A stretch of 64,000 nt of DNA, taken from the NCBI GenBank assembly GCA_004296775.1, contig RHGE01000031.1:1-64000 (forward strand), given 5' to 3'. Below are positions 31,606-53,819 of this stretch, one piece after another. The notes beneath the pieces were generated by a model. It was given only the letters and a program-made list of their open reading frames with translations, did no database searches and was not told the origin of the DNA. A program made the translations under genes and the position numbers. The DNA comes from Marinilabiliaceae bacterium JC017. GTDB lineage: Bacteria; Bacteroidota; Bacteroidia; Bacteroidales; Marinilabiliaceae. Every line of letters begins with the position of its first letter. The stretch's first letter is position 1.

Positions 31606-32607
31606 TTAATATTTACTTCCTACATAAGGCTCCTGTTTTGATTTCAAATAGTAGCGTTTGGGGCTTATTCCATAGTAATCTTTAAAGGCTCTGATGAAAC
31701 TTTCAGAATGATTGTACCCTAGCTTATCTGCAATTTCATACATGCAATAATTTTCTTCCTCAATATATTGTTTGGCCTGTTCCATGCGTGTTCTCAGCAG
31801 GAATTCAGATATACTTAGCTGAAACACGCGCTTAAACCCCGATTTCAGAAAATGCTCATTGGTTGATGTTTGCAAACTCAATTCGGGTAATTTAAGAGGC
31901 CTGGAAATATTTTGCCGGATTAATTCAGCTGCTTCATATATTTTAATGTCATTATAATTCCTGCTTATAAGCTTCCCCTTTTCCTGATATACCTGCAATT
32001 GTTCAAATTGAAGAAACAGCAATTCAGACACCTTTGCTTTTAAATAAAAACCGGAGAATGGTTTATCCATATCGCATTGACAGAGATCCATGATAACCTC
32101 CTTCATTTTAGGGAAAATTGGCAAGGGGCCATCGGACAAGGCAAAGGGCATATTGTTCTTTATCTTATGATGAATGGCCTGTATATTCCCTTTAAGGGAG
32201 CGTGTAAAAGCATAAAATTGCTGTTTCGTATACACCACCTCAAATATGGTAAGGTGTTGCGCCTGTGAAATATTCACCACAGCTGACTTGTTGGGCGAAA
32301 AGAATATATTGTGCGTCTCTTCAGGACAAAGATAATCCATATCGTCTGCCTCATCGAGACTACATTTTCCATTTAAAACAAAACTCTGTTTAATGATAGG
32401 AATTGATGATTTTGCCAGAAAACTGCAATTCTGCTTTCCATAGATTTGATTTTTATAAAGAAAAAAGTCATTATGCCTTTTCACCATTATATGTGAATCA
32501 ACATTGGAATTATTGCTATTACAACTAGAGCATCTCCCCTCCTTCAAAGAGCTCCTGAACTCACCTGCTATACACTCTCCTTTAAGGTCGTAAAAACTAA
32601 TTAGCAT
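31606..32607 (-). CDS. AraC-family regulator (siderophore-locus type)
   Basis: This 333-residue protein has an AraC two-HTH domain in the last 100 residues: LPELSLQTSTNEHFLKSGFK as the first HTH, then MYEIADKLGYNHSESFIRAF as the second, ending YYGISPKRYYLKSK. The N-terminal 220 residues carry a Cys pair (RCSSCNSN) and a region like the PchR/YbtA-type regulators of siderophore genes. It is divergent from a TonB receptor gene with 191 bp between them, where a direct-repeat operator is found. The best inference is that it controls the TonB receptor and perhaps the synthetase locus in response to an iron(III)- or metal-chelate ligand. Confidence 0.85.
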   Translation of the reverse strand: MLISFYDLKGECIAGEFRSSLKEGRCSSCNSNNSNVDSHIMVKRHNDFFLYKNQIYGKQNCSFLAKSSIPIIKQSFVLNGKCSLDEADDMDYLCPEETHNIFFSPNKSAVVNISQAQHLTIFEVVYTKQQFYAFTRSLKGNIQAIHHKIKNNMPFALSDGPLPIFPKMKEVIMDLCQCDMDKPFSGFYLKAKVSELLFLQFEQLQVYQEKGKLISRNYNDIKIYEAAELIRQNISRPLKLPELSLQTSTNEHFLKSGFKRVFQLSISEFLLRTRMEQAKQYIEEENYCMYEIADKLGYNHSESFIRAFKDYYGISPKRYYLKSKQEPYVGSKY

Positions 32608-32661
32608 ATTGGTTTGGTTTAAATTTTATGCCAAATTTAATTCCTTATAAAAAGCAATAAT

Positions 32662-32679
32662 ATCATTATAAATAATGAT
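32662..32679. promoter_or_regulatory. 7-bp inverted repeat in the divergent control region
   Basis: ATCATTA-TAAA-TAATGAT is a perfect inverted repeat next to a further TAATGAT at about 32681. It could be an operator on the AraC-gene side. It is AT-rich and faintly Fur-box-like, but the half-site order differs from the classical 7-1-7 Fur pattern, so no regulator is assigned. Confidence 0.35.
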
Positions 32680-32713
32680 TTAATGATAGCAAAAACACAA
32701 AATACCCCTTTCT

Positions 32714-32746
32714 ATAATGCTAGTTTATACTACCATAATGCTAGTT
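32714..32746 (+). promoter_or_regulatory. Tandem 12-bp direct repeats, likely AraC operator
   Basis: ATAATGCTAGTT occurs at 32714-32725 and again at 32735-32746, 21 bp apart, so the two copies face the same side of the helix. The second copy ends 19 bp before a TACTTTTG -7 box and covers the -33 region, the usual position for an AraC-type activator that replaces a missing -33 element. Confidence 0.7.
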
Positions 32747-32765
32747 AGGAAATAGACATATCATC

Positions 32766-32773
32766 TACTTTTG
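32766..32773 (+). promoter_or_regulatory. -7 box of the TonB receptor gene
   Basis: TACTTTTG, an exact TAnnTTTG match, 26 nt upstream of the ATG at 32799. There is no TTTG -33 box at the right spacing; instead the second operator repeat sits there. Confidence 0.65.
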
Positions 32774-32798
32774 CACTGTTTAAAACTATTCTAAACAA

Positions 32799-35228
32799 AT
32801 GAGAAAAAACATTACCCTGCTGCTTTTCATGTCAGTTTTAACTAATCATATTTGGGGACAAGCGACAATCGAAGGCACTATTACTTCAGATAAAGATGGA
32901 ATCATAATTCCCGGTGTAAATGTTTACACCCAGGAATTAAAACATGGTACCGCCTCAACTACTGATGGCTCTTACAGCCTTAACGTTGAAGACGCAGGGG
33001 ATTATACCCTTATCTTCTCGACTATCGGCTACGACCACAAAGAGGTGAAGATCTCCGTTAAAGAACATGAAAATGTACATGTGGATGTTAAGCTTGAAGA
33101 AAGCAACTTCAGAATGAATGAAGTGATCGTGGTAGGCGAAAATGAAGACAATAAAACAATCAAGAAAATAAAACAAAGCCCCATGGCCGTTTCCATCATT
33201 GATGGAAGAGATTTTAAAGGCAGGGTATCAGGTGTCAATGAAATCTTAAGCCGCACAGCTGGTATAAAAATACGCCAGGAAGGGGGCCTGGGGAGCAACG
33301 CCAAGATATCGGTGCACGGATTAGAAGGTAACCGGGTGGCCATATTTATCAACGGATTTGCTCTTAACAGCCCGGACGGCTCCTTTAACATCAATGACAT
33401 TGCCATTGATATTATAGAGCGAATCGAAGTCTACAAAGGCATTGTCCCGGCTGAATTTGGGGGCGATGGCCTTGGAGGGGCCATTAATATTGTTACGCGT
33501 GAAGTGGATTGCGATGTGTTAGGAGCATCCATAGAAGGAGGCACCTATGGATTACGAAAGTACAATCTAATGGCTAAAAAACTCTTTGACAAGCCGGGGA
33601 TTCAAATTGCAGCAGCCGTTATGCACAGTGAAGCCACCAATAATTACGAAATGGACCTAACCGATTTTGACCATGCACTGGATCCGGAAACGTATTCTCA
33701 TTGCACCCGGCTAAACGATGAATACATGTCACGCATGTTATTCGCCGGTATCACCTTTACCAAATTATGGTTTGATAAAATAGAGTTTGAATTTCCCTGG
33801 TATAAAAATTATAAAGGCATCCAGGCTATTACTTTTGACTCCCGATCGGCACACCGGCACGGTACTAATTTCATGCCGGTGATAAAATTGGAAAAACATG
33901 ATTTTTTTGTCAAAGGACTGGATTTCAAATCCTCTTTTGTAACCCCCATCATTGAATCTCACCTGGTGGATACGACCACCACAATGTATTATTGGGATGG
34001 TCAGACCACTCCCAGCTCCAGAGGCGAAACGGATGACCACCGTATGAATTATTCTACGGACAAGACAAAAGAAGCTCGTCATAAACTGAATTTAAAATAC
34101 AAGATCAGCGATCAACATACACTAAACCTGAACAACCAGTACGTTTATTCAAAAAATACGCCAAACGACCCCTACCTGGCCGATTATTTGGGATTTGACC
34201 CCAGTGCTTTCCCAAGCAAAATGCAAAGTAATGTAACCGGTCTATCCCATGAATACTTTTCAAAAAACAAGAGACTCCAGAATCTGTTTTCCATTAAATC
34301 CTACAATATCGATTCTGAAATATTCAGAACCACTGAAAAACTGATTGACGAGGCTGCGACCAAACAAACCCCGGCACAAACAACCAATAACAGTTTACAA
34401 TTTGGTTTTAATGAAGGAGTAGCTTATGAAATATACAATGGCACCCGGTTAAAGTTGGCATTTGAACATGCCGTGCGCTTGCCCAGGCCACATGAACTGT
34501 TTGGCGATGGTTTAGGCATTATTCCCGGGCATGATTTAAAACCTGAAAAAAGCAATAATGTGAACCTGGGCCTGCTGATGAACCATTACAACATGCTGGG
34601 CACCCAACGACTGCAATTTGAAGTGGGAACTTTTTATAAAGATGTTAAAGACATGATAAAACTAGGTCCCACCCCGGATGGCAAACTGACTCATGACAAC
34701 ATGCAAAACATCCTTATCAAAGGTTTTGAAACCGAAATTAAATTGGACATAACTCCACAGTGGTATGTTTATGGGAACTTTACTTACCAGGATTTGAGAA
34801 ATAATAAAGAATTCAAGACGGACGACAAAACCTCAAAGAACGACACTTACAACAAACGCGTTCCTAATATTCCATGGCTGTTTTACAATGCCGGAATTGA
34901 ATATCACCGGTCGGGATTGTTTAAAAAAGAGTTAACCCGTATCTATTATGATTTCTCCTACATTCATGAATACCATTACGATTGGAAAATGTCGGACCGG
35001 AAGGACAATGAATTTCGCTGGAAGATCCCTTCGCAAGCCATTCATTATGCGGGCATTCAACAGTCCTTTTTAAACAATTTGGTATCGATCAACATAGAGA
35101 TCGCCAATATTTTCAACCAAAAAGCTTACGACAACCATAAAATGCCTCTCCCAGGACGCACCATCATGGCTAAAATTAAATACAGCTGGTTCCGCGACAA
35201 GGCAGAAGGAGGTGCCATGGGATTATAA
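32799..35228 (+). CDS. TonB-dependent outer membrane receptor, siderophore type
   Basis: This 809-residue outer-membrane receptor has a signal peptide (cleavage near residue 21, WGQ-A) and a carboxypeptidase-like beta-sandwich (about residues 23-110: TIEGTITSDKDGIIIPGVNV). A plug domain follows at about residues 120-235, containing IKIRQEGGLGSNAKISVHGL and EVYKGIVPAEFGGDGLGGAI. A 22-strand barrel fills the rest, ending with a region of aromatic-terminated strands. It is not SusC-like in length. Next to a DUF4374 lipoprotein and an AraC regulator it looks like a metallophore receptor, comparable in arrangement to XusA-XusB of Bacteroides. It might take back the product of the synthetase downstream or use xenosiderophores. 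Confidence 0.9.
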   Translation: MRKNITLLLFMSVLTNHIWGQATIEGTITSDKDGIIIPGVNVYTQELKHGTASTTDGSYSLNVEDAGDYTLIFSTIGYDHKEVKISVKEHENVHVDVKLEESNFRMNEVIVVGENEDNKTIKKIKQSPMAVSIIDGRDFKGRVSGVNEILSRTAGIKIRQEGGLGSNAKISVHGLEGNRVAIFINGFALNSPDGSFNINDIAIDIIERIEVYKGIVPAEFGGDGLGGAINIVTREVDCDVLGASIEGGTYGLRKYNLMAKKLFDKPGIQIAAAVMHSEATNNYEMDLTDFDHALDPETYSHCTRLNDEYMSRMLFAGITFTKLWFDKIEFEFPWYKNYKGIQAITFDSRSAHRHGTNFMPVIKLEKHDFFVKGLDFKSSFVTPIIESHLVDTTTTMYYWDGQTTPSSRGETDDHRMNYSTDKTKEARHKLNLKYKISDQHTLNLNNQYVYSKNTPNDPYLADYLGFDPSAFPSKMQSNVTGLSHEYFSKNKRLQNLFSIKSYNIDSEIFRTTEKLIDEAATKQTPAQTTNNSLQFGFNEGVAYEIYNGTRLKLAFEHAVRLPRPHELFGDGLGIIPGHDLKPEKSNNVNLGLLMNHYNMLGTQRLQFEVGTFYKDVKDMIKLGPTPDGKLTHDNMQNILIKGFETEIKLDITPQWYVYGNFTYQDLRNNKEFKTDDKTSKNDTYNKRVPNIPWLFYNAGIEYHRSGLFKKELTRIYYDFSYIHEYHYDWKMSDRKDNEFRWKIPSQAIHYAGIQQSFLNNLVSINIEIANIFNQKAYDNHKMPLPGRTIMAKIKYSWFRDKAEGGAMGL

Positions 35229-35279
35229 TTAAACAATTACCCGACTAACTAATAACACATTTTTAACATCTATAATAAC

Positions 35280-36482
35280 ATGAGAATCATGAAAATAAAC
35301 AAAGGATTATTACTCCTGTTTCTATCTGGATTATTCCTTACAACAGGCTGTGAGGATGATACTGAAGAGATCGACACTAAAGAGACTGACACTACGGAGA
35401 AACATCAATTTGCTCACAGTGTTAAGGTGGATAAAAACACCTACCTCAGTACATTTAAAGATTTGACTGTAAAAGAAACAAAAACCAGCAATGCCCACAC
35501 GCATTCGGGTGATGCTTACTTGTTTTCCTACAACGATTGGGTATTTGTGCTGGAAGCCAAAAATGATCGATTGTTCAGGTACCGTAAAACAGACAATGAT
35601 CTTATTGCAGAAGGAAAAACACTGGTTCTTCCAGCCAAGTCATTTGCTTCATCCATATGTTTCATTTCAGATAGTAAAGCCTACATTTCCTATACCCTGC
35701 TTGGCAAAATAGCTGTTTTGGATTTAGAAAAATGGGAAATAACCAAGGAAATAGACATCACCGAATTTGCACTGGGCGATCAAGACATCAATCCCGAAGC
35801 GGTGTCCATGATCTATCGTGATAATCATGTGTTTGTTGCCCTGTGGCAGCAGAAAGCGATGAACATCCCTCACTTAGGCAGCTATGTACTGGTAATCAAC
35901 ACCACTACCGACAAGCCGGAAAAAATGCTTACTGACACACGCGGTATTCAGCTGGGCTCCCACGATCCGTCAGGTAGCCCGTTTATAGATGAGAGGGGCG
36001 ACATCTATTTTTATGCCACCGGTGCCTGGGGATACGTTCCTCAAAAAGATGGATTTTTAAGGATCCGGAAAGGATCAACCGAATTTGATCCCGACTATTT
36101 TTTCTCGATTAGCAAATCAGGCATTAAAGGTATGGATGGTTATAGTGCCAACTTTTTATATCAGAAAATATATAGCAACAATGGGGTGGTTTATGGCTTT
36201 ATAAACATCCCCGAACTCGGCAGCAATCCTCCTGACTTCCTGAACGACAAATCCATGCAACCTTGCATGATAGATGTTTATAATAAAACCATTACCAAAT
36301 TAAATGTAAAACCTACCACCGGATGGTCAACCTGCATTTCACAAGAAGACCAAAAGTTGATCCTGGGCATGTCCACTGAAGATGGCACAGGATACTACAT
36401 TTACGATTTAAATAAGCAAAGTAACAACGGTGTAAGCATTGTCACAGAAGGCATTCCCTTCCGTCTGTTGCACATGAATTAA
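35280..36482 (+). CDS. DUF4374 (XusB-like) surface lipoprotein
   Basis: This 400-residue lipoprotein has signal FLTTGCED with the lipobox Cys at about residue 24 and a strongly acidic tether (EDDTEEIDTKETD) that fits the surface-export signal of Bacteroidota lipoproteins. The body shows beta-propeller-like repeats (VFVLEAKNDRLFRYRKTD; IAVLDLEKWEITKEIDI; GSYVLVINTTTDKPEKM) as in DUF4374 proteins. The named member XusB of Bacteroides thetaiotaomicron captures siderophores next to its TonB receptor XusA. It lies 51 bp after the receptor gene, in one operon. The role as a chelate-capturing partner is inferred from family and context. An alternative ATG is at 35289. Confidence 0.82.
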   Translation: MRIMKINKGLLLLFLSGLFLTTGCEDDTEEIDTKETDTTEKHQFAHSVKVDKNTYLSTFKDLTVKETKTSNAHTHSGDAYLFSYNDWVFVLEAKNDRLFRYRKTDNDLIAEGKTLVLPAKSFASSICFISDSKAYISYTLLGKIAVLDLEKWEITKEIDITEFALGDQDINPEAVSMIYRDNHVFVALWQQKAMNIPHLGSYVLVINTTTDKPEKMLTDTRGIQLGSHDPSGSPFIDERGDIYFYATGAWGYVPQKDGFLRIRKGSTEFDPDYFFSISKSGIKGMDGYSANFLYQKIYSNNGVVYGFINIPELGSNPPDFLNDKSMQPCMIDVYNKTITKLNVKPTTGWSTCISQEDQKLILGMSTEDGTGYYIYDLNKQSNNGVSIVTEGIPFRLLHMN

Positions 36483-36490
36483 TGCAATTG

Positions 36491-36706: not shown

Positions 36707-37363
36707 ATGAAAAACTATTCTACAATAGCCATTATAAGCACAATTGCCGGTTGCTTCATTTCAATATCCGATTGGATAGTACAAATGCAATCAATAGAAT
36801 CGGACCACTTTATCAGGCGCATTACCCAGCTTACAACCTGGGAGCTATGGTTTTCGTCTCACGCATGTGTCTTTCTTTTTCCTTTATGGGCTAGCGGCAC
36901 CTGGCTTCTGTACCGCATAACCAAAGATGCTGCTCCACTCTTAGCCAAAGTAACTAGCATCTTATTAGCTTACTCCATGCTACTGCTAATTCCTTTTCAT
37001 CACAGCTACAACCTCTTTGGAATGCTTGCGAATACAGGAATACAACCAGATGATGCTCAATGGCAACTGTTGGTCAATATCAATTCTCCTTTTTATCCGG
37101 TAATGTTTCTATTACTTCCATTAAGCTGGATTGGTTTTGGAATCATTTCATGGCGGAAAAAATCACCGCTGCCCCGATGGACATTGGTGATTAACCCGGT
37201 ATTTTTATCCCTTTCCCTGGAACTATTGGCTATCCTGTCCCCCGGTATTTTCAAACCCATTCAACCGGGTATTTTTAGCGCTGCCACAACGCTTAATTTT
37301 TGGATTAGCTACCATTATTTAAAGAAACAACCTATCAACAACAGATCGTTAGATTATATATAA
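36707..37363 (+). CDS. Six-helix membrane protein (DUF6796-like?)
   Basis: This 218-residue integral membrane protein has about six hydrophobic segments (residues 5-25, 45-70, 78-100, 125-150, 160-180 and 185-205). Its small polar loops include HHSYN and DWIVQM. It is like the DUF6796-type membrane proteins found beside biosynthetic genes in some Bacteroidota, but this is uncertain. The last residues (NNRSLDYI) are encoded by the left end of a MITE-like element, so the original C-terminus was probably replaced by the insertion. It stands between the uptake pair and the synthetase. Confidence 0.65.
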   Translation: MKNYSTIAIISTIAGCFISISDWIVQMQSIESDHFIRRITQLTTWELWFSSHACVFLFPLWASGTWLLYRITKDAAPLLAKVTSILLAYSMLLLIPFHHSYNLFGMLANTGIQPDDAQWQLLVNINSPFYPVMFLLLPLSWIGFGIISWRKKSPLPRWTLVINPVFLSLSLELLAILSPGIFKPIQPGIFSAATTLNFWISYHYLKKQPINNRSLDYI

Positions 37364-37580: not shown

Positions 37581-37603
37581 AATTACTAATCAAACATATC
37601 AAC

Positions 37604-40600
37604 ATGTACACCCTTGATCAACTATTAATTGAAGCAGCCCGCAAAGTACCACATCAAGGCATAACCCATATTCAACATGGAAAAAACATCCAATTCCTTT
37701 CCTACCAAAACCTCCTTACCCAAAGCCAACAGATCGCTTATTCCCTAAAAAAAAGAGGACTAAAGGAAGGTACGTCAGTAATATTAAGTATTGAAGACCC
37801 TCAAAATTTCGTAATACTTTTTTGGTCGTGCATAATGGCTGGTTTAATACCGGCCCCCATGCCTTGTGTGGTCAACGCCAGGAAAGATTCCGTTATTTTT
37901 AAACGGTTCCTTTCTGCGCAAAAAGTTCTTCGTTGCCCTGTGATAATAAGTTTAAACAAAGAATTAGAAACTTATCTGGAACATTTAAAGATCCCATATA
38001 TTTCAGATCAACTGATCATTAAAAGCAGTCAGTTATTATCAGTGGATTACGCCCCACCCGTGTTGGATAATACCGCTACTGCTGTTATCCAGTTTTCCTC
38101 CGGAAGCACTGGCCTGCCCAAAGGAGTGGAACTCAGCCACAAGAATATCATTGAAAACATCAAGATCAAACGCGCCTGGGAGAATACATCACCAGAAGAT
38201 AAACTTGTTCACTGGCTGCCGTATTTTCATGACTTTGGATTATTCGGATGTCATATTTACTGTGTATTCAATAAGATTCCTGAAATAAGTATCTCTCCCT
38301 TCACTTATATCAGAAACCCTTTGATCTGGCTACAAAATATTGATCGGTATAAAGCGACCATTTCAACGGCAACACCCACCGGGCTGGAAATTCTCTTTAA
38401 AAGAATCAATCCTCAAATAAATTATGACCTGGATCTATCTTCTTTAAAGAGCCTCATCCTTGGAGCAGAAATGATTTCTCCGGCCACCTGTGATATCTTA
38501 AAAAACCATCTGGAGAAATACCATCTTAATCCTCTGTGCGTGAATCCCGGATATGGGCTGGCTGAAGCAACCCTGGTAGTATCCTGCCTCCACAATCACG
38601 CTTTTAAAAGCATCAAACTAAATCGTAAAGCATTAAACAACAACAAAGCCATACCAATACAAAGCACCCGGGAAGATTATTGTGAATTTACCTGTGTGGG
38701 GTCACCTGACAATGGCATAGAAATCAGAATTGCTGCACCAGATGGTATCGCAGAATCCTTTGAAATAGGAGAAATTCAGCTCCTCTCCCACTGTAACACT
38801 AAAGGTTATTTCAACAATCGCCAGGCTAGCGAGGACATTTTCCAGGACCGCTGGCTGAAGACCGGTGACCTTGGCTTTCTGGATGATAACGGACAATTAT
38901 ACATCACAGGCCGACAAAAGGAAATAATTATTATAAACGGCGAGAATCACTTCCCGTTCGACCAGGAATCCTGTATCCTCTCGGAATTTGGACATACAAT
39001 AGACAAATCAATATTTACCTCGTTTATTGATCCCGCCGACCACAAAGAAAAAGCCCTTCATTTTTTCACCACCCGGGAAAAATTATCGATGGAAGAATCC
39101 ATCAAATTATCCTTGAAGTGTAACCAACTGATTAATCAAAAATCAGGCTTTTCCCCTATTTACTCCATTCCTATACTCAAAAGCACTATCCCGAAAACAT
39201 CCAGTGCAAAAACAAAACGACTCGAATTGGCCAACCAATATCTCAATAAAAAATTCCAGGCCATTACTGAAAAGATCGATAACACACCAAAAACATTTAA
39301 CATTATGCCAACAATAAAAAACATCAAATCCAGTTTAAAAGAAATTTGGAGCGACGCTCTGGAAATACCCAATGTCAGCCAGATAGGATTACATTCAGAC
39401 TTCTTCGCTCTGGGAGGTGATTCTATTCGTGCAATGAAAGCACTTGCCCAAATAGAAAGCACCTTCAACACGAAGCTAAATTCACGTTTTTTATATGACT
39501 ATCCCTGTCTCGAAAAACAATACAACTATCTAAATCACATAGATGCCAATATTAAACAGCCTGAAAATGAATATGAACATTTGATTCGAAATATCATTGC
39601 CGAACATTTGGGGATTAATGCCGAAGAGTTGTCTATTGAGAGTCCGTTGAATGAAAAAGCCAACAACCTGAAACAACTTGTTGCCCTTTACGATTTACTC
39701 CAATCCGTATTTGATTTAGCAGATAAAAACATCGATCTGACCCAGTTCAATACCTGCCGGGAGTTAGCCAACCAAATAAGGAAAGTTTATGTTACAACAG
39801 ATAACAGAAAGATTTTTCCCCTGATGAACTTTCAACAAACCTTATTCTATCATTCCAAAGGATTTATCCGTAATGAACCAACAGGCCTGAGCTGCTATAT
39901 CATTTGTCGAACAACCATCAATGGACCATTTAATAAACAAGCATTTGATGACGCCTTTAATAATACCATTGAAACACATCCAATGCTCCGTTCTGTCATT
40001 ACCGAGGAAAGTGATACGCCTTTATTCAAAACTCTTTCTTCATGCCCCGGGTTTGAATCTGGCTACCAGGATATTTCAAACCTGAACCCAAAAGAACAGG
40101 AGTTGTTCTTCGAAATAAATGATCTTCAAGACAATGACCATCGCTTCAACCTGGGAACCTATCCTCTCTACTATGCTAACCTGTATAAAACCGGAAAAGA
40201 ACAATTCGAAATCATTATCCACATAGATCATCAATTAATTGATGGCTTTAGTTTCTTTGAATTCATTAAAGAACTGCTCTTTAAATACGATCTGGCATGT
40301 GAAAATAATTTACCGGAAGCCAGGTCAACCACAAAGCTGCAGTTCGCAGACTATGTACGCATTGAAAATTTCAGGGAGAAAACTCAAACCTACCAAAAAG
40401 CCATGGACTTTGCCCTGGAAGTTTTCAAAGATGTCCCTGAAAAGATATCACTTCCAATGAAAATGAATCCATCTATGTTGAAAGAGGTTCATTTTACTAC
40501 CCACCATACGATTATTCCTAATGAAACAATGGCTCGCATCAGCCAATGGAGTGCCAATACAGATGGTATAAGTTTAAACTCGGTATTACTAGCCTGCTAT

Positions 40601-44471: not shown

Positions 44472-45572
44472 ATGAAGCATCTATTGATTATAGGCGGCAC
44501 CGGAACTGCCGGACGCCTTATTGCCAATTATTTTGAGACAAACAGTTTTCCAGTTAAAATTGACATTGCCGCAAGGGGAATCACCAATCCCAATACATCA
44601 AATGGCATTATAAAATTGGATGCAAATAAACCCGAAAAGCTCAAAGGAAAACTCTCAAACTATGATTTGGTGATCCTGGCCATTGGCCCCTTTGAAAAAT
44701 TTGGTGCCCGGATACATGAAATATGTCTGCAGGAAAAAGTGGATTGTATTGATATCAACGATGATCCGGATGCTTGCCAATCCATTTTTAAGTTAGCGAA
44801 TCATTCCCTTCATTCGAGTGTCTATACCGGCATGGGATTATCCCCTGGCTTGAGCACACTCCTGCTTAAAGTGGTTGTTTCCAAACTAAACGATCAAACC
44901 CACAGAGCAGGGATCAGATTATATTTTGGAGCCGCGGTGCAATCAGGAAAAGCATCTATTTACACCATGTTTTCTAACATCAGAAAACAGGTTGCTCTTA
45001 AAAAGAATAATAAAACTGTTTATGCCAGCGGTAAAAAAATGGACTTGTCGGAACAATACACTTTTAACGAAGCATTGAATAAACTGCCCCTGGTGTTTTA
45101 TTCTTCACCAGAAGTCTTTACAAGTCAAAAATGCCCGTTATTAAAAAACATCGACCAGATTGATTTTGCTTTTCACCTGCAAAATTGTCCCCCTTCATTA
45201 GTCCGTTTCTTAAGAGGTATTAAATGGTTCCGAAAAAGCATTGTGCAATGGCTTACCAATACCGTTTATAAAAATCAGACAAAGCTATCAGAAGAGCCTG
45301 GCAACAATCAGCTGGTAATAGCACAAGCCTTTGCTGAAAATGAAACCCATCGGGTTTCTGCCTCACTATCCCACTCCTCTTCCTTTGATCTGACAGCAAT
45401 GTTTTGCTTTATAATCGCTAAAAAAGTACTGAACAAAGAGATTGATAACAAACCGGGGATTTACAGTTTTGACCATTTAGATATCGATTTCACAAATCTT
45501 ATGGACAACCTAAATGATTTAGGGCTTCATATTAATGTCGACGTAATAAAAAAATCAGACAAAAACATATAA
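44472..45572 (+). CDS. Saccharopine dehydrogenase-like NAD(P)-dependent reductase, copy A
   Basis: This 366-residue protein starts with a Rossmann motif GGTGTAGRLIANYF (residues 8-21) typical of the saccharopine dehydrogenase/trans-acting enoyl reductase superfamily. It continues with YDLVILAIGPF and CIDINDDPDA, which match the family's nucleotide-domain end. The C-terminal half (about residues 125-366) is the less conserved catalytic/dimer part. It is the first of two tandem homologues, 13 bp apart. In this context it may reduce an imine, an acyl intermediate or a keto group in the synthetase product. The family also includes lysine-pathway enzymes, but no lysine genes are near. Confidence 0.78.
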   Translation: MKHLLIIGGTGTAGRLIANYFETNSFPVKIDIAARGITNPNTSNGIIKLDANKPEKLKGKLSNYDLVILAIGPFEKFGARIHEICLQEKVDCIDINDDPDACQSIFKLANHSLHSSVYTGMGLSPGLSTLLLKVVVSKLNDQTHRAGIRLYFGAAVQSGKASIYTMFSNIRKQVALKKNNKTVYASGKKMDLSEQYTFNEALNKLPLVFYSSPEVFTSQKCPLLKNIDQIDFAFHLQNCPPSLVRFLRGIKWFRKSIVQWLTNTVYKNQTKLSEEPGNNQLVIAQAFAENETHRVSASLSHSSSFDLTAMFCFIIAKKVLNKEIDNKPGIYSFDHLDIDFTNLMDNLNDLGLHINVDVIKKSDKNI

Positions 45573-45585
45573 ATTCCAAGAAGCT

Positions 45586-46695
45586 ATGAATGATCGACTG
45601 CGAACAATCGGTATCATTGGAGGATATGGAACTACCGGTAAAATAACAACCGAATACCTTATAAAAAACACCGACTGTCAAATAATTGCAGCTGGTAAAA
45701 ATCCGGAAAAGCATGCGCATTGGGCCAAAAAATATCACGACAGAGTGACATTGCAAAAAACGGACTTATACAACAATAAGCAATTGCAGGAATTGTGCGC
45801 CAGTTGCGGGATTATTATCAATGCTGCCGGGCCATCTGTACTTATTGGCGACCGAATTGCCATACAAGCTTTAGATCTGAACTGCCACTACATTGATTTG
45901 GGAGGGTATGATTTGCTCTATGACCAGCTTCTTCAGAAGAATAACCTGGTTTTGAATAAAGATTTACATTTTATCATTGGGGCCGGCTGGATGCCGGGTG
46001 TTTCAGGTATTCTCCCACGCCATGCCATTGAAACGGCAAATTCCACCTTTGATCGTATTGAATCCGTTAAAATTTACTATGGGGCTGTTGAAGCCTGGTC
46101 TTTCAACTCATCCTATGATTTGGCCTGGGCCAGCAACCAGCCGTTCAATGGCATCTATGAAAACGGCCATTGGAAACCAATCAACTCTTCCAAGCTGATG
46201 CATAAAAAGTGGTTTCATGAAATTGGCCAACGCAAAAGCTGCAATCCCTTCTTTGATAATCAACTTAAGGAAACCGCCTTGAATTTGAAAGTCAATCATT
46301 TTGGCACCTATGTTATGCTTAACGACTACCGGTCGGCCCTTTCCTATCTGTATAACAAACTGTTCTTAAAAAACAACAGAAAAAAGGCAGCACGAATGAT
46401 TGAAAAGGATTCAAAACGCCTACAGAAAAAAGAAGGATCATGGGGACTAATTACCTGCGAAATAACAGGTTTTACGAATAATAGTAAAAACACATTAAAA
46501 CATTCCCTCGCCGTGGAAGACAATTATTATCCAACAGGCATCGTTCCGGCCCTGGCAGCTAAGCAGATAATAGACTCTGAGATTAAGAATGCGGGCATGG
46601 ATTATTTATGTCAAAAGGTAAATCCTGAAAACTTTATGGAAATTTTGGGAGGTTGCAATATACGCTATCAAACTGAGCTTTACCCATCCTCATAA
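45586..46695 (+). CDS. Saccharopine dehydrogenase-like NAD(P)-dependent reductase, copy B
   Basis: This 369-residue protein is paralogous to the preceding gene. Its Rossmann motif is GGYGTTGKITTEYL (residues 12-25), followed by CGIIINAAGPSVLIGDRIA and a YIDLGGYD segment in the place of CIDINDD. The C-terminal half has motifs such as GAGWMPGVSGILP, which match the GLSPGLSTLL stretch of copy A. It probably acts with copy A as a heteromer, or the two act in consecutive reductions. There is 13 bp between the genes, so co-translation is likely. Confidence 0.78.
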   Translation: MNDRLRTIGIIGGYGTTGKITTEYLIKNTDCQIIAAGKNPEKHAHWAKKYHDRVTLQKTDLYNNKQLQELCASCGIIINAAGPSVLIGDRIAIQALDLNCHYIDLGGYDLLYDQLLQKNNLVLNKDLHFIIGAGWMPGVSGILPRHAIETANSTFDRIESVKIYYGAVEAWSFNSSYDLAWASNQPFNGIYENGHWKPINSSKLMHKKWFHEIGQRKSCNPFFDNQLKETALNLKVNHFGTYVMLNDYRSALSYLYNKLFLKNNRKKAARMIEKDSKRLQKKEGSWGLITCEITGFTNNSKNTLKHSLAVEDNYYPTGIVPALAAKQIIDSEIKNAGMDYLCQKVNPENFMEILGGCNIRYQTELYPSS

Positions 46696-46727: not shown

Positions 46728-47699
46728 ATGAAAAGAAAAACGAAAATAACAGGCTTGACTTTTATAGTTCTCTGCGGACTTTTTTTAGCAGGCTGGCTGC
46801 TTAAAATTCCCACGCCCGGTAAAGGTCCCCTAACTGCCATCTCCCTGCCCGGAGACATAGCTGATTCATCTCAACTTCATTACATTGAACAACCGGATGG
46901 ATCCAGACAATACTACCGGGTTATACAACCTGAGAACAAGGACAGTATACGCGCTATTCTGCTTTTTATCCATTCCGTTTCTGTACATAGCGGGTGGTAC
47001 ACCGATCTTGCCCGACAAATTGCCCAAAACGGCACCTTGATACTCTTACCCGATATTGGTGGACATGGTGTATTTGCATCACAAACAGAATTACCCGACA
47101 ACATGCACACTGTGTTAAAAGGATTTAGTTCCGTATTGAATAGTGCTAAAGAAAAATACCCCCATTTACCAACCTTTGCAGGCGGCATATCCATGGGCGG
47201 AGAACTGGCCATAAACTTCGGGTTATCCTACCCAAACACTGTGGACGGTCTTTTATTGATTAGCCCTTTTATTGCCGGAAGTAATAATTACGATACACAA
47301 GCTTGTTTTGGCAGAGGGGGAATGTATAGTTTTTGTTTTTCCAGGTTCATTTTCCCTGATATTGAATCAATCTATGTGAATTTCCCTAAAACCCTTAAAG
47401 ATCCTTATCTAAGGTGCAATTACCCATTAAGTTTTTTCAATATCTATAAAAATAAGGATTACGAAAATCCTTTCCACCGGTTGAGTCAAGTGCGCTTGCC
47501 TGTTCTTTGGCTACATGCCACCAAAGAACAAATCATCCTCAAAGATGAATCCCGTCAATTATTCGAAAGTATTGCCAGCCATCACAAAGAGTTCATGGAA
47601 ATAGAACAGGCTGATCATCTCAATATCTGTACTCATGTTAAAAATCCTATTAATTCCTGGATAGAAAAAACACAATTTCTCATTGCTTCAAAACAGTAA
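46728..47699 (+). CDS. Membrane-anchored alpha/beta-hydrolase (Ser nucleophile)
   Basis: This 323-residue protein of the lysophospholipase-like serine hydrolase type has an N-terminal membrane anchor or signal (residues 9-25, GLTFIVLCGLFLAGWLL). The oxyanion region LLFIHSVSVHSGWYTDLA precedes the nucleophile elbow GISMGG with Ser155. The acid is probably Glu in ATKEQ near residue 265, and the His is in QADHLNIC near residue 303. It could trim, release or esterify the lipidic product at the membrane. It is clearly homologous to the hydrolase at 49668-50612. It stands 32 bp after the reductase pair, probably one operon. Confidence 0.82.
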   Translation: MKRKTKITGLTFIVLCGLFLAGWLLKIPTPGKGPLTAISLPGDIADSSQLHYIEQPDGSRQYYRVIQPENKDSIRAILLFIHSVSVHSGWYTDLARQIAQNGTLILLPDIGGHGVFASQTELPDNMHTVLKGFSSVLNSAKEKYPHLPTFAGGISMGGELAINFGLSYPNTVDGLLLISPFIAGSNNYDTQACFGRGGMYSFCFSRFIFPDIESIYVNFPKTLKDPYLRCNYPLSFFNIYKNKDYENPFHRLSQVRLPVLWLHATKEQIILKDESRQLFESIASHHKEFMEIEQADHLNICTHVKNPINSWIEKTQFLIASKQ

Positions 47700-48596: not shown

Positions 48597-49448
48597 ATGA
48601 AAATAAGTCTTAAAATCATTTTGGCATTATGCTCCTTAGGTTGTTTAACGGGGTTTCCATGGGCTTTTTTGCCCTGGGAAATTACCGAGCACATTATTAA
48701 CATGCAAAACGCTATCCCCATCGGAAACGCTGGTTTTACTATACTGAGCTATCGATTTCATTGCTTGCTTTTCGGGGCTTTTGCCTTCTATTTCTTCATC
48801 CTACTATACCGATCAGCAAAATATGCCAAATTAATAAACATAGCAGCCTACCTATTGATTGTCATGGGTGTTTATATGCACTGGCTTAAGCTTCGTTCTG
48901 GTCTGCTTAACACCGCTTCACACTGGGAACCTGTTATCTGGGCTCTCATAGGTGGATTAATCTTACTATTCAACAGAAAAACATACACTACTGCAAAAAA
49001 AGTAAAGCACTCCACTAGCAATGACCGAAGGGGACAATTATGCCTAAAAGCAATTGCATGCTTACTGGCATCTTCACTCATTTGGATATTTCTTCCATAT
49101 AGCAGCCGGATGGCCATTTTACATCAATTCACTTTACCTGTTAACACTTTACACGCACATGAGCAATACACCATGGGATTAATTGCCGGATTTTTAGGAT
49201 TTAGCTCCATAATCATTTGGATCATCAGCACTAAAACAAACCACTACTCAGAACTCTACAAACTAATTCTAGGTGTATTTATTTGCGTTCCGTTCATCCT
49301 CTCTATTTGGCTTATTCAACTTGAATTAAACAGTGTTATACTATATCTCTTGTTAATCTTTTTTGAATTAACCGGAATTGGCCTGGCAATTTCACATTAC
49401 AAAAATCGCCAACTAGACACCAGCAGATCATTTTCTCACCTGAAATGA
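48597..49448 (+). CDS. Eight-helix membrane protein with internal duplication
   Basis: This 283-residue integral membrane protein has about eight hydrophobic segments and no recognised family. The two halves look alike: residues 22-75 contain WAFLPWEITEHIINMQ...YRFHCLLFGAFAFYFF and residues 155-210 contain WIFLPYSSRMAILHQF...YTMGLIAGFLGFSSII. Together they suggest a duplicated four-helix unit. The His in both halves (HII, HQF) might be functional. It is the only gene between the two hydrolase genes and may be a transporter or a membrane enzyme of the locus. Confidence 0.6.
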   Translation: MKISLKIILALCSLGCLTGFPWAFLPWEITEHIINMQNAIPIGNAGFTILSYRFHCLLFGAFAFYFFILLYRSAKYAKLINIAAYLLIVMGVYMHWLKLRSGLLNTASHWEPVIWALIGGLILLFNRKTYTTAKKVKHSTSNDRRGQLCLKAIACLLASSLIWIFLPYSSRMAILHQFTLPVNTLHAHEQYTMGLIAGFLGFSSIIIWIISTKTNHYSELYKLILGVFICVPFILSIWLIQLELNSVILYLLLIFFELTGIGLAISHYKNRQLDTSRSFSHLK

Positions 49449-49489
49449 CCATTCCACTCTTGTCATCCATCATTAAACAGTGGAGAATA

Positions 49490-49593
49490 TGAGAATTTGA
49501 AAATGCGAGAAACTGAGGAGATGAGAAACTGAGAAACTGAGAAGGTGAGAAGGTGAGAAATTGAAAATTTGAAAGATTGAAAATATGAAACGT
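49490..49593. repeat. 8-bp tandem repeat (TGAGAAAC-like, 13 units)
   Basis: Thirteen consecutive octamers occur: TGAGAATT, TGAAAATG, CGAGAAAC, TGAGGAGA, then two TGAGAAAC, two TGAGAAGG, TGAGAAAT, TGAAAATT, TGAAAGAT, TGAAAATA and TGAAACGT. The strand is strongly purine-rich. It sits in the gap before the second hydrolase. Confidence 0.8.
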
Positions 49594-49667
49594 CCATGAT
49601 TAATAAAGAAAAACTCTGTGTCTCAGCACCTCTGTGTTCACAATCTATTATCTAAAAAAATAAACAG

Positions 49668-50612
49668 ATGAAGCAAAAAGCACTTTTTATACCATTAATA
49701 TTTGTTCTGCTGGGCCTTGTTGCAGGATTTTTTATTCCTTTCCCGGCAAAATCAGATGGTTTTTTGGGATTCTATTCATTACCTGCCGATGTAAATAGTA
49801 CAGAAAATGTATTGTTCTTCAAAGCCGGTGACAAAACCAACATAGCGTATCGAAAAATCAACCCGCCGGAAAATACACCTTCTAACCAGAAATGCCTGGT
49901 ATTTCTGCATGCGCTATCGGTTCACAGTGGCTGGCTCACTGACTTTGCCAGAAAAATCAGTGAAACCGGTACAACAATTTACTTACCGGATCTCAGAGCT
50001 CATGGCTTATCGGAAGGAAGAGTCAATGACATTCCGGGAATGGAAGTAATGGTATCTGATTTAGAAAAAATGATTCAAATCGTAAGAAAAGAACAGCCTG
50101 ATTCTAAAATTATGCTTGGTGGTCACTGCCTGGGATGTAAATACATTACCAATTATTTATATAAAAATTCACAAAACGACATTGAAAGCCTGGTTTTCCT
50201 GGTACCCTTTTTTACTGATGCCCCCAATATCCATGAAGGGTTGTATTATCAAAAAACCGGAAGAATGTTTAGTTGTTATCCCCTGCGGCTCCTGTTTCCC
50301 AAAATGCTTTCAATACATGCCAACTGGCACCATGCACTTTCCGATCGTTTTCTTCGAACTGACTATTCCCTATCCTTTGTGGAGATGAAAGACTTTGACC
50401 GAAATCTTGAAAACCGACTGAAAGGCATCACCCAACCATTGATCTGGATACAAGGTGAAAATGACATCATGTATAAGAAGGCAGGGACAAACCAAATGTT
50501 TGAAACCATAGCCACCTCTGAAAAAGAACTTTACTTTCTAAAAGAAACCGGACATATGGATGTAATTAATAACTCAACCATCTACATCAAACAATGGATC
50601 TCTAAACGATAA
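49668..50612 (+). CDS. Alpha/beta-hydrolase paralogue with Cys at the nucleophile position
   Basis: This 314-residue protein is homologous to the hydrolase at 46728-47699: it has an N-terminal anchor (residues 7-24), the shared segment LVFLHALSVHSGWLTDFA, and the same order of motifs. The nucleophile elbow reads GGHCLGC, with Cys154 exactly where its paralogue has Ser155. The acid (Asp in GENDIMYKK) and His (ETGHMDVI) are kept. Cys-type alpha/beta-hydrolases such as dienelactone hydrolase exist, and a Cys can also serve in acyl transfer. A transferase or a thioester-handling role is therefore possible. It starts the group of four tightly packed genes leading to the PPTase. Confidence 0.8.
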   Translation: MKQKALFIPLIFVLLGLVAGFFIPFPAKSDGFLGFYSLPADVNSTENVLFFKAGDKTNIAYRKINPPENTPSNQKCLVFLHALSVHSGWLTDFARKISETGTTIYLPDLRAHGLSEGRVNDIPGMEVMVSDLEKMIQIVRKEQPDSKIMLGGHCLGCKYITNYLYKNSQNDIESLVFLVPFFTDAPNIHEGLYYQKTGRMFSCYPLRLLFPKMLSIHANWHHALSDRFLRTDYSLSFVEMKDFDRNLENRLKGITQPLIWIQGENDIMYKKAGTNQMFETIATSEKELYFLKETGHMDVINNSTIYIKQWISKR

Positions 50613-50617
50613 GTCTT

Positions 50618-51271: not shown

Positions 51272-51275
51272 ATCG

Positions 51276-51953
51276 ATGCATTATTACGGAATTATATCTT
51301 TTACCCTTTTAATCATTCTAAGCATATGGGCCTGTTACAGATATAAACAACATATGCAAATGGGTAGCTTTTACGGAAACAATAATTTTTCCAGGATGAT
51401 TTATCTCAACCTGGTACTAGGATTACCATTAACCTGGGGATGGTGTTTATCTCCATTCCTGCCTCAACCACGTCTGCATGGTATCCTGAGCATTTTGCAA
51501 CACCAATCGGCTTTTACATTTGCATCTTATTTTTCGGTTTTAATTGGATTTGCCATTTTATTATACGCCATGATTGTGCAGGGGAATGTTCAAAAAAGCA
51601 ATTTAACTCAGACTTCTGCCGATTATGCCCGTCCCAAGCAATTAATAATTGAGGGTGAATATCAAAAACTACGACATCCCATTATCATATTAACGCTTTT
51701 TATGATTCTGGGTCTGTCATTAATAACCGGTGCCTTATACAGCCTGATAACGCTCCCCTTTTATTTTTTAATTTGTCATTACACGGCGGTTTACGAAGAA
51801 AAATATGCGCTGCGACCACTTTTTGGCCAAACCTTTGAAAACTACAGGAAAAAGGTTCCGGCATACTTTACACCTTTTACCATTTCAGTGTTTATAATTC
51901 TATTTACGGCTTCCATTTTAAATTATTTTTCTAATGGCCTGGTTACCGCATAA
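51276..51953 (+). CDS. ICMT-like membrane methyltransferase, copy B
   Basis: This 225-residue homologue of the preceding gene lies 4 bp downstream. It carries GEYQKLRHPIIILT (about residues 127-140) and EEKYALRPLFGQTFENYRKK near the C-terminus, the ICMT-type SAM-site pattern, with several helices before it. The end overlaps the PPTase start by 20 bp, so the genes are translationally coupled. Two such enzymes in tandem point to either a heteromer or two methylations of the product. Confidence 0.75.
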   Translation: MHYYGIISFTLLIILSIWACYRYKQHMQMGSFYGNNNFSRMIYLNLVLGLPLTWGWCLSPFLPQPRLHGILSILQHQSAFTFASYFSVLIGFAILLYAMIVQGNVQKSNLTQTSADYARPKQLIIEGEYQKLRHPIIILTLFMILGLSLITGALYSLITLPFYFLICHYTAVYEEKYALRPLFGQTFENYRKKVPAYFTPFTISVFIILFTASILNYFSNGLVTA

Positions 51954-52593
51954 GTGTCATCCTCTGTTGCCCTCTTCCTCTTTTTGGGATCAACTGAGAC
52001 TCAATTTTAATGTGAGAGCAGCCATCGCCAATAATGAACATTGGAATCAAGGCATTTTTCTACATCCACTGGAACAAGACATAATAAAGCCTACCTGGTC
52101 ATTTCAAACCAGGAAAAACTTTACTTTGGGTAGACATGCTGCCCATCTGGCATTAAAAGAACTTGGAAATGACTCTTTTCCTGTATTAAAAAGTAATTCC
52201 GGGCATCCTATTTTTCCTTATAACATTAAAGGCTCCATCTCCCATAAAGATAACCGGGCCATATGTGCCGTTAGTAATTCTCCTAACATTAAAGCAATAG
52301 GAATTGATTTGGAATTAATGAACGAACCCTTAACACAAGATCATGCTAAATTATTTTTTCACCCCCTGGAGCTTTGCAACTATGAAGAAACCTTAGAAAA
52401 ATACCACTCTTTACAAGTTATTTTTTCATTAAAAGAAGCCATTTTCAAATCCCTACCGGCAAAAATACAGCACCATACTGAATTTAAGGACATAAAGGTT
52501 TCTGAATATGACAACAACCCAAATGAATACCTGGGATATGAATTACTTGGTAATATAATTACCAGTGTCTATGTTTTTTCAGAAGCACCCTGA
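51934..52593 (+). CDS. 4'-phosphopantetheinyl transferase (EntD/Sfp type)
   Basis: This 219-residue enzyme loads CoA-derived phosphopantetheine on the carrier serines. Conserved motifs: FTLGRHAAHLALKELG (about residues 63-78), GHPIFP followed by GSISHKD, AIGIDLELM with the metal-binding Asp-Glu-type pair, and FSLKEAIFKSLP. It is thus of the Sfp/EntD group that acts on peptide synthetases, and its target should be Ser607 and Ser1781 of the synthetase in this locus. The start overlaps the upstream methyltransferase by 20 bp. The 3' end resembles the block at 44157-44180, a remnant of a related gene end. Confidence 0.88.
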   Translation: MAWLPHKCHPLLPSSSFWDQLRLNFNVRAAIANNEHWNQGIFLHPLEQDIIKPTWSFQTRKNFTLGRHAAHLALKELGNDSFPVLKSNSGHPIFPYNIKGSISHKDNRAICAVSNSPNIKAIGIDLELMNEPLTQDHAKLFFHPLELCNYEETLEKYHSLQVIFSLKEAIFKSLPAKIQHHTEFKDIKVSEYDNNPNEYLGYELLGNIITSVYVFSEAP

Positions 52594-52647
52594 AAAAAAA
52601 CCACTTCGAGGGGTATTGTCTTTAGCTGATTATTGGAACAAGACAAC

Positions 52648-52960
52648 AGATCGTTAGATTTTAGATAATAGACCTATTCATATCTTACCAATTGGAAATA
52701 TCATAACAACTTGATTTATGAAATAATTATCACTCGATTACTAAAGCTTAATGAACTATTAATAATATAAACGACATCCAATTTGAACAACATATTGGTA
52801 AAAGTTACTACCTAAGCGTCTACATAACAATAAATCGATAGATTTTAGACAATTAGACCTTAAACTGATTTTCATCAATCTCACTTTATGCCCTTTAATA
52901 GTTTTGACGACCAAAGAAACACGTACTGTTTTTCTATTAATTACTAAAGCTTAACAAATT
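52648..52960. repeat. Two MITE-like elements in tandem
   Basis: The first copy (52648-52757) starts AGATCGTTAGATTTTAGA and ends, inverted, AGTTCATTAAGCTTTAGT. The second (52833-52960) starts AATCGATAGATTTTAGAC and ends, inverted, AATTTGTTAAGCTTTAGT. Both lie between the PPTase and the methyltransferase gene and contain no gene. Confidence 0.6.
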
Positions 52961-52991
52961 ATTGCATAAAACTTGACAACATAAATCTCTC

Positions 52992-53819
52992 ATGATAAAT
53001 CTGCTCAATTCAAAAAACATTACTCTGTCAGAAGTGGAAAAAACCAAATTTTTACCACTTATGGGACGCGCATATGGTTCCGAAAACCACAGTGAATTAC
53101 TTAAGGATCCAACCGCTGAAAAAATCTTTGACCTTTTCAAAGGTGAACTCCTGGAACAAGAAAAGTTACTTGATAACTACAGTAAGCTCTTGTTTTTTAT
53201 GCGTGCCTTTCAATTCGATCGCATAATTAAGAACATTGCCCAATCAAATGAGAAAGTCAAACTTGTAAATGCCGGTGCCGGATTGGATACCATTAATTGC
53301 AGGATCAAGGCAAAAAACATAACCTTTTATGATTTAGATCTTCCGGAAAGTGCTAAACTAAGACAGTTTCTTATTCCCTCTTCTTCGAACACTTTTACTA
53401 TTTCTGGCTCTTTCCTTGATTCTAAATGGATTGAACAATTGAACCTGCAAAAAAACGATACCCTGATTATTATGGCTGCCGGACTTTTTATGTACTTACC
53501 GGCTGCCGAAATTCTCTCCCTGCTGAAACAATTGTGCACGATTCATCCCAATACCCACATCCTTTTTGACCAGACCTCTTATGTGGGAAAACTTGCTATC
53601 AAAAAGCTGTTAAAAAAGTCAGGATTAACTAATGTCACATTGACCTCTAAAATGAACCTATCTGATCTCCGCCACACCTTTCCATCTCACACCATTAAGA
53701 AGATACCTTATTGGTCCCACATCAGAAATGATAACGCCATCTGTTTTTCAGATCGGCTTAAAATGACTTTATGCGACCTATTTGAAATGGCCTACCTGGT
53801 TCACCTTCGAAAGATGTAA
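52992..53819 (+). CDS. LCM-type (Ppm1/Tcmp) SAM-dependent methyltransferase
   Basis: This 275-residue class I SAM methyltransferase is of the leucine carboxyl methyltransferase-like group. The SAM loop is seen as KLVNAGAGLDTINCR (about residues 88-102, variant of GAGLDT), with the acidic strand end TFYDLDLPES (about 111-120) and a conserved region FMYLPAAEILSLLKQL. Such proteins methylate carboxyl groups or phenols of polyketides and peptides. It is the last gene of the locus, about 400 bp from the PPTase, and might add a methyl ester to the acyl amino acid. There is no terminator. Confidence 0.82.
   Translation: MINLLNSKNITLSEVEKTKFLPLMGRAYGSENHSELLKDPTAEKIFDLFKGELLEQEKLLDNYSKLLFFMRAFQFDRIIKNIAQSNEKVKLVNAGAGLDTINCRIKAKNITFYDLDLPESAKLRQFLIPSSSNTFTISGSFLDSKWIEQLNLQKNDTLIIMAAGLFMYLPAAEILSLLKQLCTIHPNTHILFDQTSYVGKLAIKKLLKKSGLTNVTLTSKMNLSDLRHTFPSHTIKKIPYWSHIRNDNAICFSDRLKMTLCDLFEMAYLVHLRKM

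Follow-up and report, generated by a model that had tools for sequence, protein, structure and literature searches.

A synthetase locus with a XusA/XusB-like uptake pair in Marinilabiliaceae bacterium JC017: a candidate for metallophore synthesis and reimport

Does a bacterium which carries a short peptide synthetase next to a siderophore-type uptake pair make its own metal-binding molecule and recover it? The question is raised by positions 31606-53819 of a stretch of 64,000 nt (the window; contig RHGE01000031.1, assembly GCA_004296775.1) from Marinilabiliaceae bacterium JC017. Fourteen genes lie here, of which the gene for an AraC-family regulator is divergent and the other 13 are on the + strand. 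In the reading preferred here, to which a probability of about 0.57 was given, the locus would make a small acylated, heterocyclic metallophore and take its metal complex back. As best reading of its kind, it would be a fatty-acyl-started, salicylate-free variant of siderophore-type clusters of Vibrio and Pseudoalteromonas, with a dedicated Xus reimport. The metallophore is proposed because Xus genes stand alongside and because the orthologues of two reductases keep siderophore-type company in other genomes. Gene set, conservation, the kinship of a heterocyclization (Cy)-like domain, reductase orthology and the Xus-like pair were taken from the sequence; from these we infer every chemical step, the metal and the uptake of the metal. 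An earlier sequence-only reading had offered either a short acylated amino acid or a small metallophore as product. The latter is retained, whereas a plain acylated amino acid is disfavored, as the Cy-like domain points to an oxazoline or thiazoline ring.

Uptake pair, conserved gene order and assembly line

The features which carry the argument are as follows; counts out of five loci refer to the window and four relatives described below.

32799..35228, + strand: TonB-dependent receptor, XusA-like
35280..36482, + strand: DUF4374 lipoprotein, XusB-like, with a lipobox Cys24 (assigned by eye) invariant in five loci
37604..43822, + strand: synthetase of 2072 amino acids (acyl-AMP ligase, peptidyl carrier protein domain (PCP), Ser-less carrier-like domain, Cy-like domain, adenylation (A) domain, PCP, thioesterase (TE))
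37604..39268, + strand: loading ligase of the fatty-acyl-AMP-ligase (FAAL) kind, residues ~1-555, motif PYFHDFGLFG
39335..39532, + strand: carrier domain 1 (PF00550), residues 578-643, Ser607, GGDS motif in 5/5 loci
39566-39808: second carrier-like stretch, residues ~655-735, phosphopantetheine Ser missing in the window, stretch kept in all five loci
39809..41128, + strand: Cy-like domain, residues ~736-1175, in which DHQLIDGFS fits DxxxxDxxS
41261..42808, + strand: A domain, signature DMTNMGEVA at the GrsA code positions, identical in 5/5 loci
42944..42946, + strand: Ser1781 of carrier domain 2 (second PF00550 stretch), motif WEIGGDS
43118..43780, + strand: TE domain (PF00975, 94.6 bits), nucleophile motif GYSYGG (GYSYSC in relatives)
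44472..45572, + strand: reductase 1 (Red1), saccharopine/carboxyspermidine-dehydrogenase fold, placed by predicted fold, with only a sub-threshold NAD-binding family match
45586..46695, + strand: reductase 2 (Red2), saccharopine-dehydrogenase family (PF03435, 42.8 bits)

For the receptor, the best solved chain was 9gbc, with 259.6 bits over residues 7-795 against 67.6 bits for the runner-up; 9gbc belongs to the XusAB complex of B. theta (PMC13142918). The lipoprotein reached only 18.1 bits with the Pfam model of DUF4374 (cut-off 25), and a profile of five DUF4374 sequences gave XusB 9hqe as best solved chain (E 3e-10). Its predicted model (mean pLDDT 70.7, pTM 0.74) fitted B. fragilis XusB best (9hqk and 9hqe, Z 27.6 and 27.3), ahead of cobalamin lipoproteins (Z up to 23.6) and Barnesiella XusB (21.3); B. 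theta XusB was not among the rows compared with profile and model, an absence without significance. The lipoprotein is the sole match of its kind in the genome. As judged from sequence and model, receptor and lipoprotein are a XusA/XusB-like pair.

Relatives of the synthetase were searched in genome contigs. A scan with the single protein found none, and a profile of two sequences gave 14 loci, four of which hold full-length relatives at 47-48% identity: B. pyogenes DSM 19673, P. massiliensis DSM 17679 and the metagenome-assembled genomes (MAGs) RUI502 and RUG12352, all Bacteroidales. The other ten loci (22-32% identity) lie outside the gene-content count. The TonB-dependent receptor, the DUF4374 and DUF6796 proteins, Red1, Red2, an unnamed membrane protein and two ICMT-type methyltransferases are encoded next to the synthetase and on its strand in 5/5 loci, the second ICMT-type gene of RUG12352 being cut by the end of the available DNA. 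Two proposals of the sequence-only reading are strengthened. The XusB type of the lipoprotein agrees with profile and model, and the coupling of synthesis to uptake stands, as a synthetase kept without the uptake pair, which would speak against it, was seen in 0/5 loci.

The Cy-like domain was compared with solved Cy domains and ordinary condensation (C) domains. Its core motif is DHQ(L/I/V)(I/V)DG(F/Y)S in 5/5 loci and matches DxxxxDxxS. By alignment, D1130 and S1096 were mapped to the positions of the catalytic Asp-Thr dyad described for Cy domains (PMC9547227, PMC8807600). The Asp is kept in all five loci and the Thr is replaced by Ser in all five; this Ser may serve in its place. The best single-domain solved match was the bacillamide Cy domain 5t3e (98.6 bits alone, 116.1 bits using a profile of the five sequences). 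With this profile, EpoB Cy scored 92 bits; a bacitracin synthase chain reached 117.2 bits as the sum of two domains (54 and 62). A tree was built from 22 domains, and in it the five locus rows joined nine Cy domains, apart from eight C domains, with a support of 98/96. For this tree 15 sources were scanned, of which L006, L007, L049 and L051 had no domain above threshold; hits spanning ≤ 150 model positions were dropped, starter-type and dual C domains were left out by design, and Cy/C labels of the other rows were assigned from motifs. Three C rows had very long branches. What had been read as a C-A module should therefore be termed a Cy-like-A module, since the domain groups, as a deep sister line, with Cy rather than with ordinary condensation domains.

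The loading ligase scored 334 bits with the best FAAL model, PRK09192, which is under the cut-off of 600 for that model. Its nearest solved chains were McyG (233.5 bits), 6ulx (209), 3kxw (194) and 3pbk (165), the first two of which need not use fatty acids. By sequence, the acyl group loaded is probably, though not certainly, a fatty acid.

Saccharopine and carboxyspermidine dehydrogenases act on C-N bonds, joining or splitting amines and carbonyls. The Red1 model (pLDDT 65.1, pTM 0.70) gave Z 24-28 with both enzymes and Z 28.0 over 284 residues with carboxyspermidine dehydrogenase. A Red2 profile found 8deb (E 3e-21), which places Red2 in the same family by sequence. A tblastn search with Red1 over 72,556 plasmid records matched six of them: P. 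massiliensis; V. lentus p1 and two Pseudoalteromonas records (each ≥ 88% coverage); Natronococcus (75%); and Rhodococcus (43%). Red2 matched the neighboring gene in V. lentus p1 and both Pseudoalteromonas records, and also Clostridiaceae (62%) and Pantoea (42%). Red1 of the window scored 132 bits with V. lentus Red1 and 34 bits with V. lentus Red2; conversely, Red2 scored 99.8 bits with V. lentus Red2 and 39 bits with V. lentus Red1. On these sequence comparisons, Red1 and Red2 are two separate orthologous lines which were kept together, each with its own Vibrio/Pseudoalteromonas counterpart.

All three gammaproteobacterial records with at least 88% Red1 coverage lie in siderophore-type clusters, two of them being closely similar Pseudoalteromonas loci. 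This context count excludes the Natronococcus and Rhodococcus records for Red1 and the Clostridiaceae and Pantoea records for Red2. The V. lentus p1 cluster consists of a salicylate synthase, two nonribosomal peptide synthetases, an alpha/beta hydrolase, iron ATP-binding cassette (ABC) genes, a TonB receptor, Red2, Red1 with a long C-terminal extension, a 4'-phosphopantetheinyl transferase (PPTase) and an AraC regulator. Both Pseudoalteromonas records have counterparts of the TE, importer, receptor and reductases in the same order with extra genes interspersed; upstream DNA was examined for strain 2515 alone, and it contains a salicylate synthase. The extension of the Vibrio Red1 (L065:17983-19890) comprises ~270 residues and has a sub-threshold match to L-2-amino-thiazoline-4-carboxylic acid hydrolase (17.2 bits).

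In the proposed pathway, the ligase would load an acyl group, probably a fatty acyl group, onto PCP1, and the A domain would put one amino acid onto PCP2. The Cy-like domain would couple the two and close an oxazoline- or thiazoline-type ring. Red1 and Red2 may carry out a hydride transfer with a C=N or amine intermediate as substrate, perhaps to reduce the ring; the methyltransferases would cap the molecule, for which a methyl ester is a guess, and the TE would release it, perhaps as oligomer or ester. An exporter, represented by an ABC pair in relatives and by none in the window, would secrete the product. Its metal complex would be imported by the XusA/XusB-like proteins, and release of the metal may fall to the membrane-anchored hydrolases.

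Further genes, distribution and mobility

The remaining features of the locus are listed below. All genes named by the sequence-only reading are open frames at the positions it gave, and family searches agreed with its assignments; its list was incomplete, however, and two polytopic membrane proteins were added (36707-37363 and 48597-49448).

31606..32607, - strand: AraC-family regulator, divergent from the receptor gene (HTH_18, 55.7 bits, cut-off 33.6)
32714..32746, + strand: ATAATGCTAGTT, 12 bases, present as two exact copies whose starts are 21 bp apart, in the region separating the AraC gene from the receptor gene
36707..37363, + strand: polytopic DUF6796 membrane protein (Pfam 51 bits, cut-off 26.9), kept in 5/5 loci
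46728..47699, + strand: S33-type alpha/beta hydrolase 1 (97 bits), N-terminal hydrophobic helix (7-25)
48597..49448, + strand: polytopic membrane protein without family (ArsP_2 match sub-threshold), 31% identity to the B. pyogenes counterpart, 5/5 loci
49668..50612, + strand: S33-type alpha/beta hydrolase 2 (90 bits), N-terminal hydrophobic helix
50618..51271, + strand: PEMT/ICMT-type membrane methyltransferase 1 (PF04191, 33.1 bits), 5/5 loci
51276..51953, + strand: PEMT/ICMT-type membrane methyltransferase 2, paralogue of 1 (PF04191, 27.1 bits), second such gene in 5/5 loci
51934..52593, + strand: Sfp-type PPTase (PF17837, 51.1 bits; PF01648, 34.7 bits)
52992..53819, + strand: LCM-family (carboxyl-type) methyltransferase (PF04072, 40.7 bits), counterparts in B. 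pyogenes and MAG RUI502
36594, 37365, 44002 and 47770; 44153/52567; 31285-31496 and 53834-54427: long intergenic repeats

The pattern of the ATAATGCTAGTT repeat had one match in the window and none in 100 shuffles, having been picked after it was seen. It is a possible AraC operator, which would fit control by a small molecule; this role is a guess. The two hydrolases are paralogues with 29.6% identity to each other. Neither they nor the AraC regulator have a counterpart in the examined DNA around the four relatives' loci. An LCM-type gene is present in the window, B. pyogenes and RUI502, and a PPTase gene in the window, B. pyogenes and P. massiliensis; a PPTase-like frame was seen by eye at the far end of RUI502.

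The relatives carry further genes. An ABC pair is encoded in 3/3 relatives whose DNA reaches far enough, and a CmoA-like methyltransferase in 4/4 (L044:24068-24865, L061:15790-16584, L046:23463-24257, L047:19572-20366); likeness to CmoA was tested on one copy (163 bits, cut-off 193). The copies are 86-88% identical to that of B. pyogenes, compared with 52-72% for the neighboring membrane protein and ICMT-type proteins and 73-84% for the ABC proteins. A carboxymethyl donor, as expected from a carboxy-S-adenosylmethionine synthase-like enzyme, would be unusual in siderophore synthesis. A search of the JC017 genome for the CmoA-like protein gave no match, which is weak evidence, and a search for the ABC pair gave 39 matches, led by two tandem pairs with 35-41% identity (C488 and C217). 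An exporter may thus be encoded elsewhere in this genome.

The locus is rare. The synthetase was compared with 60 related genomes, 36 of them from the family of JC017. Adenylation-type matches were found in all, none near full length among the matches listed; the best of these had 409 bits over residues 735-1926, with at most six candidates scored per genome. Among 395 genomes of the phylum, 25 including JC017 itself had a Red1 match at E 1e-3, and of the other 24 only G290 was close (35%). At E 1e-15, a Red1 profile matched 2/393 genomes of the order, including JC017, and 3/301 genomes of the family of G290.

In P. massiliensis, the locus is borne by a 140-kb circular record labeled as plasmid, whose aligned pieces share 99.95-99.97% identity with the type strain. 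In DSM 17679, the locus has a G+C content of 32.5%, compared with 44.2% immediately upstream. This strain has a transposase-like gene (by eye; L061:10959-12173) that separates the DUF4374 gene from the DUF6796 gene; the near-identical locus on the plasmid of strain TSDC17.2 is without this stretch. In JC017, the intergenic repeats between and around the cluster genes are 44-161 nt long and 68-98% identical to their reference copies. The flanking repeats were considered as ends of a mobile element and rejected, since the family at 31280-31500 is dispersed, with at least 20 matches on ten contigs including that of the window (40 of 118 candidates scored).

Two regions of the window outside the cluster were recorded. 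At 55913-57920 (- strand), a 502-amino-acid protein ending in a Pfam Ribonuclease domain of the barnase kind stands beside a Barstar-family protein, by sequence a probable toxin-immunity pair. Positions 11236-20324 hold two tandem proteins with phage-tail-collar domain, followed by a gene of the periplasmic-binding-protein type, and a 2201-amino-acid Calx-beta/cadherin protein with a Por secretion tail.

Weighing the product against its rivals

Several observations weigh against the proposed metallophore. Some concern the Cy-like domain itself: it retains the His of C domains (DHxxxDG), Ser replaces the dyad Thr, the helper Gln is absent, and in the tree its rows, which have a long branch (1.84), are sister to the Cy clade that was sampled and fall outside it. 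For these reasons, the domain may only condense. Moreover, the C chains of McyA (77 bits), tyrocidine (66) and surfactin (59) outscored the Cy domains of Irp2 (49.5) and HMWP2 (46.7), so that score rank alone does not decide between Cy and C. With one Cy-like and one A domain, only one ring would be formed. The A signature DMTNMGEVA is unlike the Cys-type signatures of the V. lentus and P. piscicida synthetases. Six of their eight A domains read DLYN(L/M)SMIW, the Cys code, one DLWNMSQIW and one DLLNFSLVT.

Other such points concern the gene set. Family searches recognized no salicylate, catechol or hydroxamate enzymes in the locus; the search for a salicylate synthase family covered the 14 gene products and not the rest of the genome. 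The ABC pair and the CmoA-like methyltransferase of the relatives are not in the window. A PepSY gene, as reported beside Xus pairs, was not among the 14 gene products either. Control by iron found no support. Fur boxes were sought upstream of the receptor operon and of the synthetase gene in each of the four relatives; the best candidates matched 12/19 bases of the consensus, a level also reached, in every one of the five cases, by 122-180 of 200 random sequences (first-order), and they were rejected.

The reductases, finally, need not be ring reductases, since known clusters carry a separate thiazoline or imine reductase besides the saccharopine-type protein. Equibactin has the thiazoline reductase EqbF plus EqbM, and when EqbM is lost E. 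coli no longer makes the product (PMC3672683). Sorangibactin has the Irp3-like imine reductase SrbI in addition to the saccharopine-type SrbE, which is called indispensable with a function yet unknown; deleting SrbE/F/G abolishes sorangibactin A (PMC10127202). In mupirochelin, MchI occurs as well as the saccharopine-type MchE (PMC10080011).

The strongest rival takes the Cy-like domain as condensing only. A linear N-acyl amino acid would result, on which the reductases would perform reductive condensation (opine chemistry), leading to a polycarboxylate metallophore of the staphylopine kind. This agrees with the joining or splitting of amines and carbonyls by the enzymes of nearest fold, the condensation His without helper Gln, the C chains scoring above Irp2 and HMWP2, and an A signature which is not Cys-like. 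It is nevertheless judged unlikely, as tree and motif put the domain nearer Cy and the reductase pair accompanies Cy/Cys assembly lines in gammaproteobacteria.

A slightly less likely product is a lipid-like signal or surface molecule, i.e., a methylated acyl amino acid, which the Xus-like pair would import as signal. The FAAL-type start, the membrane methyltransferases and hydrolases, the missing Fur box and an AraC regulator which could sense the product are in line with it. The reductase orthologues, however, adjoin iron ABC importers, and those DUF4374 proteins which have ligand-bound structures (B. theta, B. fragilis) are reported to bind ferric siderophores (PMC13142918).

An antimicrobial product, with the receptor pair serving self-uptake or resistance, appears improbable. 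One locus is on a record labeled as plasmid and an antibacterial thiazole family was reported from a gut bacterium (PMC11934131), but the uptake genes are of the siderophore kind and family searches found no resistance-type family among the 14 gene products. That a xenosiderophore piracy pair stands beside an unrelated synthetase by chance, for which one may cite other Bacteroidota Xus pairs that adjoin PepSY genes with no synthetase mentioned (PMC13142918), is hardly credible and was rejected by synteny, the adjacency being identical in 5/5 loci though the proteins have diverged to ~28-48% identity.

Significance and comparison with known systems

No description of the locus, or of a siderophore made by gut Bacteroidota, was found among the matches listed in open-licence full-text literature. 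Gut Bacteroidota are not known as makers of such metal-binding molecules, and two older papers say much the same for Bacteroides (PMC5552952, PMC6281302); the main text of a recent metallophore-mining paper is without any word beginning with "Bacteroid" (PMC12971057). The earlier statement that no described pathway has this set holds for the exact set in the literature searched; it does not hold for the reductase pair, which is orthologous in other siderophore-type clusters. As a tentative generalization, with somewhat less than even odds, some gut Bacteroidota would make their own fatty-acyl oxazoline/thiazoline metallophore, tailor it with two reductases and recover it by a dedicated Xus pair, and the trait would pass from one species to another, carried in P. 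massiliensis by a circular plasmid. If true, the iron-piracy apparatus of Bacteroidota would double as a self-siderophore system. The presence of synthesis and Xus genes in one locus of B. pyogenes DSM 19673 and P. massiliensis DSM 17679 makes the question of an own metallophore testable in cultured strains, and offers a short assembly line in which to learn the role of saccharopine-dehydrogenase-type proteins in siderophore synthesis.

Among known systems, myxochelin (MxcH/MxcG) is remote: the receptor scored 307 bits with the MxcH model, far under the curated cut-off of 925, and no catechol gene was recognized. The Bacteroides Xus systems (XusA, XusB) share the receptor and the beta-propeller lipoprotein, that of the window being nearest to the hookless B. 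fragilis XusB. They differ in that a PepSY protein lies alongside and foreign siderophores are taken (PMC13142918), whereas the pair of the window has a synthetase alongside and no PepSY gene.

The V. lentus p1 and Pseudoalteromonas clusters resemble the locus in the orthologous Red2-Red1 tandem, a TonB receptor and Cy domains, and in V. lentus also in a PPTase and an AraC regulator. In contrast, they have a salicylate synthase, mostly Cys-type A domains and FecBCD-type importers, a Xus-like lipoprotein was not seen, and that of V. lentus has a reductive release domain. No paper on their product was found among the literature matches listed.

Equibactin, coelibactin, sorangibactin and mupirochelin are like the locus in having Cy-type domains and a saccharopine-dehydrogenase-family protein, which is reported for the equibactin (PMC3672683), sorangibactin (PMC10127202) and mupirochelin (PMC10080011) clusters; this likeness to EqbM, SrbE and MchE is by description. 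Equibactin further shares a PPTase and a membrane alpha/beta hydrolase, EqbN, which was cloned together with EqbM, and is on a mobile element; as described in the paper, though not by sequence, the order EqbM-EqbN resembles that of Red2 and hydrolase in the window. These systems start with salicylate (predicted for coelibactin) and form several heterocycles, whereas the locus of the window has a FAAL-type ligase, one Cy-like/A module, two saccharopine-type reductases, two membrane methyltransferases and Xus-type uptake. As an aryl starter (salicylate or dihydroxybenzoate) defines the aryl-capped Cy siderophore families and none is recognized among the 14 gene products, the locus is, by its sequence, strictly outside them; it would work like them if the Cy-like domain cyclizes.

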